From Blastopirellula sp. J2-11 (lineage in GTDB: Bacteria > Planctomycetota > Planctomycetia > Pirellulales > Pirellulaceae), in the NCBI RefSeq assembly GCF_024584705.1, contig NZ_CP097384.1, positions 1,550,001 to 1,614,000 on the forward strand: 64,000 nucleotides of DNA, read 5' to 3'. Below, piece by piece: positions 7,760 through 50,362 of the stretch (its first letter is position 1; the number at the start of each line of letters is the position of its first letter). The notes under the pieces are model-generated. The model was not told where the DNA came from, did no database searches, and saw only the letters and a program-made list of their open reading frames with translations. Both the position numbers and the translations under genes were made by a program.

Positions 7760-8097
7760 AAGGCAAGTTTATGTGTCGATGGAGAAATCCGTAAAGACGG
7801 CAGGCATTCTCGCCTCCATTGGCAAGCAGGCGGGAAAGATTGACTGTTGCTCTATGGTTCGATTTTTTGCGATAATACTACTCCTCATGCGCGGGCTGCA
7901 GGCGTCTGATCTGTCGCCGACGCCATCTGTTTTCTGGCGGCCTCGGTTGGAGACGAAGTGCAGAGTCGACAGGGAAGTTTTCTCTTGGTCGCGTCGAATC
8001 CATCCGGGATTTGGATCGCATCGATGCGCAATTGCGTTTCTACGCGGGAGGGGACTGAGGTCCTTGGCAGGTTCAGGTGCGTCCAGACACACCGTAC

Positions 8098-8169
8098 AAA
8101 ATTGCCCAAATTGACACTCAGGCAAAATGGGCGAGGCCTCAAAAAAACGGAGAGCGGTCCAGTCCAACC
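8098..8169 (+). repeat. Repeat module A1
   Basis: Begins AAAATTGCCCAAATTGACAC and ends CGGTCCAGTCCAACC. The same start (TTGCCCAGATTAACGC) and same type of end occur at 50072-50146. It is preceded, as at 50284-50304, by a GGTGCGTC..GAC.CACC..TAC hairpin remnant (8075-8097). Confidence 0.7.
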
Positions 8170-8182
8170 GATTAAACCGTAG

Positions 8183-8199
8183 GACAGGCCGTGCCTGCC
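8183..8199 (+). repeat. Short GC-rich hairpin shared with 61172-61188
   Basis: GACAGGCCGTGCCTGCC forms a 7-bp stem (one mismatch) around CGT. It matches the reverse complement of 61172-61188 at 16 of 17 bases, and the similarity extends a few bases on one side. It is thus a copy of a dispersed hairpin element. Confidence 0.7.
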
Positions 8200-8208
8200 G
8201 CAACAAAA

Positions 8209-8280
8209 GTTTCCCCAGATTGACATTCGGGAATAATAGGTAATTTATTGGCAAGTAAACTTCAGCGGTCCAGTCCGATG
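8209..8280 (+). repeat. Repeat module A2
   Basis: Begins GTTTCCCCAGATTGACATTC and ends CGGTCCAGTCCGATG. It is aligned with module A1 at both ends and has the same length (about 72 bases), while the interior differs. Divergence with conserved ends suggests an old family. Confidence 0.65.
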
Positions 8281-8288
8281 TGCACAAA

Positions 8289-8357
8289 TAGTCGCCTTTC
8301 GCTCCCGCGAAAGTAGCGTCAGCCTTACGCATCTTTCGCGGGAGCGAAAGGCGACTA
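8289..8357. repeat. 25-bp perfect inverted repeat (cruciform-forming)
   Basis: Arms 8289-8313 and 8333-8357 are perfect reverse complements separated by 19 bases. Each arm is also internally palindromic (CTTTCGC..GCGAAAG), so the DNA or RNA could form a two-armed or cloverleaf structure. It lies between modules A2 and A3. Such CTTTCGCtcc.GCGAAAG elements are, from general knowledge, abundant in Pirellulales intergenic regions. Confidence 0.85.
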
Positions 8358-8389
8358 TGGGCCGGAACAGACTCTCAGTGCAGGAAGTA

Positions 8390-8432
8390 TTTGGAGTGAT
8401 CGAAAAAAACAAACCGGTCCGGTCCGGTCCAA
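8390..8432 (+). repeat. Repeat module A3 (3' end)
   Basis: Ends with three tandem GGTCC units at 8414-8432 (CCGGTCCGGTCCGGTCCAA), after an A-rich stretch. Its 5' part cannot be aligned confidently with A1 or A2. The terminal motif is the same as in B1 and B2 near 50129 and 50345. Confidence 0.6.
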
Positions 8433-8551
8433 GGCGACGGCACGTCGGCTCCGACCGGGATTTGATACAATTGCTCGACCGCCCTCGCAAGTCATCGATC
8501 AATCCTCATCCTGCCCAACGCCGCTTCGCGACTAGATAAAGCATCTTTGAT

Positions 8552-49842: not shown

Positions 49843-50071
49843 ACAGGCGGCCGGTCCCAAAGAGGACCAACTTTCGGGACCAAGATTGTCCGTTGACAAT
49901 GCGCACGGATCCGTGGTCGATTGCCGTGCAGCGAGAAGGAAAATAGGCTCCTATTTGCGCGCTTAGCATGGGGATGGTCGATCTCCCAGCAAAGCTCCGG
50001 CGCTCTTTGACAATTGACGTTTCGAAGCGTGCCGACGTTAGCGGTTCAATCCATAGTTGGGCTCGCTGTTC

Positions 50072-50146
50072 AAATTGCCCAGATTAACGCACGGGCTAGT
50101 TGGGCAATTTAGCAGAATATTTTCAACGCAGTCCGGTCCGGTCCAA
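50072..50146 (+). repeat. Repeat module B1
   Basis: Begins AAATTGCCCAGATTAACGCA and ends CAGTCCGGTCCGGTCCAA (50129-50146). Its own ends can form a stem: AAATTGCCCA (50072-50081) with TGGGCAATTT (50101-50110). It is the counterpart of module A1. Confidence 0.72.
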
Positions 50147-50158
50147 CCTTTAGATTTT

Positions 50159-50304
50159 GTAGGGTGCGTCAAGACGCACTAGGCCCTGCTGATCCGATCC
50201 AGAACCTTCCTCGCGTGGCAACGCAATGGCGCCTCGGTTGCGTTGCCACGCGAGTCGATTGGTTGCGGATTCGGCACTTCGAGGTGCGTCTTGACGCACC
50301 CTAC
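50159..50304. repeat. Nested inverted repeat
   Basis: Outer 21-bp perfect arms are at 50159-50179 and 50284-50304 (core GGGTGCGTCAAGACGCAC). Inner 17-bp perfect arms are at 50210-50226 and 50238-50254 (core CGTGGCAACGCAA). Each outer arm is itself nearly palindromic. The outer arm type recurs, degraded, at 8075-8097. Confidence 0.85.
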
Positions 50305-50362
50305 CTAAATTAACGCCCAGGTAGTTTGGACAAGTTGAAAAAATCAGTCCGGTCCGGTCCAA
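50305..50362 (+). repeat. Repeat module B2
   Basis: Follows the outer right arm directly: CTAAATTAACGCCCAGG, then CAGTCCGGTCCGGTCCAA at 50345-50362. In locus A the corresponding hairpin is followed by module A1 in the same order and orientation. Confidence 0.7.

Follow-up and report, generated by a model that had tools for sequence, protein, structure and literature searches.

Related systems

The repeats analysed here resemble, each time in part, several described systems. MITEs and other non-autonomous repeats come as short copies that carry the ends of longer, gene-bearing copies and for which empty sites are found; the present family is alike in both respects, but it has no terminal inverted repeats and no transposase, and many of its sites are common to several species. 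PICIs and other phage satellites have a replication gene followed by iterons and an AT-rich origin; here a DnaB-like helicase gene is followed by repeats and an A-run as a candidate origin, and a cis site is common to the family and a phage cluster of the same genome. On the other hand, neither an integrase nor an attachment site, a regulator or a primase was seen in the family units that were read, and each genome has dozens of these loci, most of them non-coding and at sites common to species. Pneumococcal BOX-type elements are modular non-coding repeats with a variable number of inner modules; our family is alike in that, but differs by its leader, its helicase-bearing form, its boxA and its chromosomal spacing.

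According to PMC3733652, GTAG-tagged REPs are short stem-loops with GTAG at one end that belong to the RAYT system. The likeness to the systems described there lies in GTAGGGTGCGTC..GACGCACC hairpins and in matches to Y1 transposases in all four genomes, but the hairpins alone fit, the modules and leader of the family being non-palindromic. The nearest working analogue appears to be the Bartonella GTA system, which is conserved and in which, according to PMC3610622, a phage-derived run-off replication origin amplifies hundreds of kb. Its likeness to the present family lies in phage head-tail genes, whose portal is found here in all four genus genomes, in a phage-type helicase and in a candidate phage-derived chromosomal origin; the Blastopirellula candidate origins differ in being many and chromosome-wide. 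A literature search, conducted mostly without subscription papers, found no paper describing such a family.

Anatomy of the two loci

The window is a stretch of 64,000 nucleotides, positions 1550001-1614000 of a genome of 6,428,985 b in one contig (G000), which was compared with three other Blastopirellula genomes (G001, G002 and G003). The first-pass annotation had singled out two composite repeat loci, A and B, with common modules, and both are present where it placed them. Their elements, read from the letters unless another basis is given, are as follows.

Locus A, 8076..8097, minus strand: degraded GTAG-type REP hairpin
Locus A, 8099..8165, plus strand: module 1 (M1), with the end GGTCCAGTCC at 8156-8165
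Locus A, 8176..8202, no strand: second hairpin type (ACCGTAGG.CAGGCC...), resembling hairpins in other arrays
Locus A, 8207..8276, plus strand: module 2 (M1), with the end GGTCCAGTCC at 8267-8276
Locus A, 8288..8358, no strand: large inverted repeat ATAGTCGCCTTTCGCTCCCGCGAAAG..., resembling inverted repeats at other arrays
Locus A, 8380..8430, plus strand: terminal module, A-run and GGTCCGGTCCGGTCC at 8416-8430
Locus B, 49881..49922, plus strand: leader, CAAGATTGTC..TTGACA..GCGCACGG..GGTCGATT; PWM 60.8 under a genus-wide model (next best in the window 6.1)
Locus B, 50004..50015, plus strand: boxA-like TCTTTGACAATT, exact match, with the core CTTTGACAATT as in rRNA leaders
Locus B, 50072..50144, plus strand: module 1 (M1), with the end AGTCCGGTCCGGTCC at 50130-50144
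Locus B, 50159..50179, plus strand: GTAG-tagged REP hairpin GTAGGGTGCGTCAAGACGCAC, missing in the G002 ortholog
Locus B, 50210..50254, no strand: large inverted repeat, CTCGCGTGGCAACGCAA / TTGCGTTGCCACGCGAG
Locus B, 50284..50304, minus strand: GTAG-tagged REP hairpin, inverted relative to the copy at 50159
Locus B, 50298..50360, plus strand: module 2 (M1), with the end AGTCCGGTCCGGTCC at 50346-50360

The modules common to A and B are the four M1 modules listed, of about 65-73 b, which start near AAANTNCCCANNTTRAC and end in at least one GTCC repeat (GGTCCAGTCC or AGTCCGGTCCGGTCC). The hairpin GGTGCGTC that had been reported is found in both loci, degraded in A and perfect in B (50284-50304), where it has its inverted partner at 50159-50179. 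A large inverted repeat is likewise present in each, but the two differ in sequence. The 42-b leader and the boxA of locus B had been overlooked, and a PWM scan of the window gave no leader for locus A. The earlier remark that no transposase is present holds for both loci.

The hairpins are passengers, namely separate GTAG-tagged REPs outside the core of the family. At locus B, GTAGGGTGCGTCAAGACGCAC at 50159 and its inverted copy at 50284 correspond to the definition of such REPs in PMC3733652, and at the orthologous locus of G002 the hairpin segment is missing while leader, modules and ends are retained. Matches to Y1_Tnp (PF01797) number 8/21/10/11 in G000/G001/G002/G003; a tyrosine transposase of the REP-related kind thus occurs in the genome, and its pairing with the GTAGGGTGCGTCAAGACGCAC REP is a candidate only. 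The description of the loci as REP-like is thereby right for the hairpins but not for the modules and leader, which are not palindromic REPs.

A genome-wide family of polar modules

The pattern GGTCCRGTCCAACC, with at most one mismatch, occurs at 133 sites of G000 (88 + 45) against three (1 + 2) for the reversed pattern. This confirms that a defined, dispersed repeat family with many copies and conserved ends exists beyond chance, as had been proposed, and shows it to be far larger than two loci: genome-wide, copies were numerous and the terminal motif was conserved, so that the refuting condition set with the proposal, a handful of copies at most or no such conservation, does not hold. The sites form dozens of clusters, many of them tandem and regular, with periods of 19, 20, 34, 40, 107, 108 or about 117 b. 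The module ends, those of A and B included, typically consist of an A-run, about 6 b and then (G)GTCC[A/G]GTCC. An A-run of at least five stands just upstream of 354 of the 536 module ends in 111 arrays (G000 126/263, G001 72/80, G002 87/109, G003 69/84), whereas A5 is found in 40 of 1340 random upstream 30-mers, and the commonest distance from A-run to GTCC is six bases. Across the four genomes the first module measures 60-389 b, and by regex count the longest tandem array has 28 ends.

When 55 fetched regions were searched in fuzzy mode, 65 M1-like stretches emerged, some of them doubtful with 7-8 errors, of which 53 were aligned and 12 left out for length. A hairpin followed by a module, the order reported for A and B, is not a rule of the family: just upstream of the 53 M1 modules the GGTGCGTC hairpin stands in only 4 cases, two of which are in A and B, another hairpin in 7 and neither in 42. 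The proposal of a structured RNA is not supported either, because RNAalifold gave no consensus fold for these 53 modules on either strand and no part of the window reached the gathering score of an Rfam family. A coding array was rejected, since the units are of variable length, in many cases not divisible by three, the exception being the tail of the helicase described below; a CRISPR-like array was rejected as both bodies and ends are variable.

Some arrays have further components of their own. A unit of about 20 b like GATCCAACCTTGTCCGATCC forms long runs at six G000 loci (L069, L075, L095, L104, L109, L117), apparently the module end expanded alone. In G003 arrays (e.g. L129, L141) GCGGTCCACATGATAGGTGGAC recurs and itself forms a GTCCAC/GTGGAC hairpin, and another recurrent module start, like GTCCACATTGTGAAACTAATCACGAAG, is seen at L124 and L136 in G000 and at L125 and L138 in G002.

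The leader

A typical member of the family has a 5' leader followed by one or more same-strand modules that end in GTCC[A/G]GTCC, usually after an A-run. When clusters were aligned on their first GTCC end, the leader emerged with a consensus of roughly CAAAnATTGTCnnTTGACAAAGCGCACGGATTTGnGGTCGATT, lying on the same strand 108-396 b upstream of that end in 38 of 71 regex clusters; over the four genomes the distance is usually 96-470 b. Scanned with a PWM, the fetched sequence (1.18 Mb) yielded 134 leader copies, and its reversed control none. The commonest 9-mers 3' of the leader are of the GTCC type, with upstream counts of 0-1, and a GTCC end lies within 1.5 kb downstream, at distances of 96-469 b, in 52/69 leaders of G000, 19/20 of G001, 19/25 of G002 and 20/20 of G003. 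A sequence model of the leader (one of 38 leaders being left out as a near-duplicate) found it at E <= 1e-4 in 4/4 genomes of the genus and in 0/143 other relatives, at most 38 leaders being scored per genome in this comparison; at E <= 1, weak matches included, counts in the four genomes were 82/40/91/45. Exact matches to the leader pattern in sequence records came from B. marina DSM 3645 alone, the window's own records perhaps being excluded, and a viral collection gave none.

Where both neighbours were called, 22 of 37 leader loci lie between convergent genes; among all gene pairs of these regions, 58 of 256 are convergent. This setting is what would be expected if gaps at gene ends were passive sinks that gather REPs, tandem repeats and remnants and have no function, and the several REP and hairpin types inside the arrays agree with it, as do three near-identical copies of an IS3-type transposase gene (rve domains) inside the G000 arrays L068, L077 and L108. 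We nevertheless consider such sinks improbable: the cross-species conservation of the leader at shared sites already disfavours them, and strict polarity, the preferred distance from A-run to GTCC and the spacing along the chromosome speak against them as well.

boxA and possible transcription of the arrays

The six rRNA loci that were found, in G000, G001 and G002, all carry the boxA core CTTTGACAATT ahead of 16S; no 16S was found in G003. The rRNA leaders (L290-L295) show two contexts upstream of 16S, both with GTTGACG and a common boxA region. With up to two mismatches, TCTTTGACAATT follows 31 of 151 leaders at 66-128 b, as against 0/151 upstream windows and 2/151 windows 600 b downstream. 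It is seen after 30/128 leaders with an array near, about a quarter, and after 1/23 others; a stricter motif gave 20/134 leaders and 1/134 upstream. The presence of boxA downstream of leaders suggests, for some arrays at least, transcription without translation.

On this evidence, the main rival to the reading that we favour below, a possible one at lesser odds, is that the loci are non-coding transcription units, in which the leader would be a promoter, boxA would secure read-through of an untranslated array, and the ends would be RNA elements or protein-binding elements of a long regulatory or sponge RNA. Besides boxA, it is in agreement with the TTGACA core, with the position of the leader about 105-275 b before the helicase start and about 37 b before the portal ATG, and with the preservation of the leader at orthologous sites where the upstream flank is not kept. 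Against it, our inspection found no good -10 box in the leader, three quarters of the array leaders have no clear boxA, the M1 modules gave neither fold nor Rfam match, and module bodies diverge between orthologous sites; moreover, the multi-copy helicase and the spacing of the loci are left unexplained. If it were true, the family would represent a large and hitherto unknown group of non-coding transcripts under boxA control.

The helicase-bearing form

In G000, a leader with no array close by is in most cases followed by a gene of some 500-630 codons. It encodes a DnaB-like helicase and marks the longer form of the family, with the common terminus at or near the 3' end of the gene. The product matches Pfam AAA_25 (E 4e-19), its PHROG matches are primase/helicases, and its N-terminal part has a weak DnaB-like match (3bgw, E 0.0037). 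The best Foldseek matches are DnaB folds (E 1e-11; TM 0.29-0.38, with a helicase model of mean pLDDT 65), and in that predicted model the C-terminal part (about 407-490), among the better predicted ones, reads as a winged helix. There are 11, 16, 13 and 14 distinct helicase loci in G000-G003; matches number 11, 16, 13 and 21, since seven of those in G003 are second pieces of genes already counted. An A-run and GTCC stand at or near the 3' end of the gene in 29/30 loci. A leader is found upstream in 14/16 loci of G000 and G002 together versus 1/14 of G001 and G003.

Three G000 copies at separate sites share 97.2-97.6% identity over a stretch that opens shortly ahead of the leader and closes with the GTCC end, and at the eight helicase loci read the repeated unit contains the helicase ORF alone. 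In G000 helicase genes (e.g. L091, L262) the GTCC repeats are translated as C-terminal PVRSND / PVLSND tails of variable length. A profile search of the viral collection gave one relative, at 25% identity, and phage records gave partial matches only, all of them below 60% identity and below 80% coverage of the protein. Outside the genus, relatives were found in 9/78 genomes of the family at 27-35% identity, with one short piece at 44%; where readable, the neighbours of these relatives look phage-like by eye.

The virus-type helicase gene of its longer members makes the family look like a remnant of a replication system of viral origin. The reading that we favour, tentatively and at somewhat less than even confidence, is that A and B are helicase-less members of a composite family, present throughout Blastopirellula, that goes back to a phage-type replicon. 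With the A-run at their side, the GTCC repeats would be iterons next to a melting site, and hence an origin, which the helicase may bind, probably via its winged-helix-like C-terminal part. The leader would be a second cis site, a promoter and/or a packaging site, which also occurs in the head-tail cluster described below, and members such as A and B, having lost the helicase, would be served in trans. Ends and helicases might be homogenised within a species, and cargo swapped between fixed sites, by homologous recombination of one copy with another. What the sequences show is the anatomy, and replication or packaging is inferred from it; even so, shared sites, a cis site in a phage cluster, a multi-copy helicase that evolves in concert and self-avoidance over tens of kb are hard to explain as junk.

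Several observations weigh against the replicon reading. The GTCC repeats lie on one side of the A-run only, unlike in PICI origins, and in G000 fewer than half of the ends have an A-run at all. Just one of the 14 helicase loci of G001 and G003 has a leader-like site upstream, and two of the 16 in G000 and G002 are without it. Arrays of up to 28 ends exceed the needs of an origin, and boxA points to transcription, which neither an origin nor a packaging site needs. Finally, neither integrase nor attachment site was found in the helicase units read, nor a target duplication at the empty site considered next.

Shared sites, turnover and empty sites

Most leader regions are common to the two closest species, G000 and G002, while cargo differs and helicases are alike within a species; the sites lie apart from one another. 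Of 40 leader loci fetched from G002, 35 map to a family region of G000, 31 of them with a G000 leader, the mapping being by region (at least 700 b aligned) and not by exact site; for the other five no G000 counterpart was fetched. One helicase site is common to all four species (L165, L243, L252, L240), and the helicase tree groups the genes largely by species. At the L238/L235 site the flanks are 94-95% alike and the helicases 81%, whereas the three closest G000 copies, located elsewhere, reach 97%. A helicase in one genome is replaced by a non-coding array in another at four tightly bracketed gaps (L161/L247; L074 and L187/L253; L262/L192; L186/L236), and within wider brackets that include other genes at L106/L244 and L157/L275; the leaders and ends of L244 and L253 are below the scan threshold, and these two are rated 'empty' in the occupancy table.

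The locus A site is occupied in G000 and G002; in G001 and G003 it is an empty gap of about 160-220 b, too diverged for a target duplication to be read. This comparison was the only one chosen blind to occupancy; counts of occupied sites are otherwise biased, because the G001-G003 regions were mostly fetched for their leader or helicase content. A further case is the G001 helicase unit L257, which lies between two gene ends as about 1.96 kb of extra sequence where the same gap in G000 measures 18 b. Its likeness to four other G001 copies ends 0-6 b past the A-run and GGTCCGG, after which unique flank follows; therefore, the GTCC end is the 3' edge of the element there. On the 5' side the part common to the other copies begins about 175 b inside, and no target duplication is visible between G001 and the empty G000 site, whose flanks are about 80% alike.

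Alike copies at different sites, sharp edges, these empty sites and the spacing along the chromosome would all suit a transposon family, in which an unrecognised enzyme moves full-length copies, the short ones are MITE-like and the distances of tens of kb between copies are due to target immunity. We hold this to be unlikely, as there are no terminal inverted repeats (the leader at the 5' end and the GTCC at the 3' end are not inverted copies of each other), no transposase in the units read and, at the only empty site that could be read, no duplication of the target. In addition, 31 of the 40 G002 leader loci lie in regions orthologous to G000 leader regions, so that new insertions between the two genomes have been few. 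The earlier suggestion of a MITE-like element survives inasmuch as helicase-less copies exist beside helicase-bearing ones and sites can be empty, but it fails on the inverted repeats and on the gene, which encodes a helicase and not a transposase.

Of 124 non-first modules at 16 pairs of orthologous loci, 57 have their matches solely at other loci within their own genome, and for 35 the orthologous locus is the only or the better match. Such a pattern would also arise in integron-like cassette arrays, with the leader as insertion site and modules exchanged at their GTCC ends by a recombinase encoded elsewhere. This we regard as very improbable: the edges of the matches coincide with both 5' module ends in 39/101 cases and with both 3' ends in 67/101, an excess at the 3' side that is expected from the shared ends alone, and the modules are non-coding.

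The phage head-tail cluster

The leader also occurs in a phage head-tail cluster, which in G000 (G000:C1, about 3660-3686 kb, L264-L266) comprises terminase, portal, protease and tail genes, those beside the portal having been read in this genome only. The motif is doubled there between terL and portal. The portal-adjacent copy is identical in G000 and G002, while the DNA further upstream in the gap is unalignable, and two weaker leader-like copies precede the portal in G003 (PWM 36 + 21) and G001 (24 + 21), the next best scores being below 0. The portal is found in all four genomes, at 94, 87 and 84% identity to G000 in G002, G003 and G001, respectively, values that fit descent. The cluster may be a domesticated prophage or a GTA. 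The link to the phage is weakened by the prophage region, in which a single GTCC[A/G]GTCC occurs in 60 kb, and by one stop codon in the G001 portal.

A pac site inside terS was entertained, given that leader copy 1 lies within a small HTH ORF in G000 and G002. The argument is weak, because this placement does not hold in G001 and G003 and because another ORF upstream of terL is a better terS candidate; what is left of it is a doubled cis site before the portal. By analogy, a cis site common to arrays and a conserved phage cluster resembles one for packaging or late-gene control.

Chromosomal spacing

Leaders avoid each other along the chromosome. Spacing was tested in G000, G002 and G003 on sets of higher-scoring leaders with a few added, not all weak matches being in and tandem leaders being merged. 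The 62 leaders of G000 leave two gaps below 30 kb against 15.4 at random, a value that 0 of 20,000 simulations reach, and five gaps against 15.4 when three tandem copies are restored. Once leaderless arrays and further helicase loci are counted in (n=80), four such gaps stand against 24.7 (0/20,000). G002 has one among 47 leaders against 8.5 (12/20,000) and G003 one among 35 against 4.8 (577/20,000). Bar one or two exceptions, the smallest gaps are 32.8 kb (G000), 39.0 kb (G002) and 44.6 kb (G003). The CV of gaps on single contigs was not significantly low (G002:C2, P 0.19; G003:C10, P 0.13).

Such distances allow a bolder version of the replicon reading, which we regard as speculative and improbable: chromosome-wide phage-derived stations and the head-tail cluster would together form a GTA that amplifies and packages pieces of the chromosome, with locus B as one loading point. 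Each station would consist of a leader, as packaging or start site, and of A-run/GTCC origins, at least a phage headful (35-45 kb) from the next. If an origin or packaging role were true, the family would represent either a new GTA layout or a minimal phage satellite.

Loss between direct repeats was rejected as a source of the spacing, as neighbours 30-60 kb apart lie on the same strand in 13 cases and on opposite strands in 6, with no shortage of the former, and so was a strand bias linked to replication, leader strand and regional GC skew showing no visible agreement by eye. At L156 in G000 and L230 in G002, leaders stand in tandem every 240-250 b or so, with GTAGGGTGGGT hairpins, before a helicase gene.
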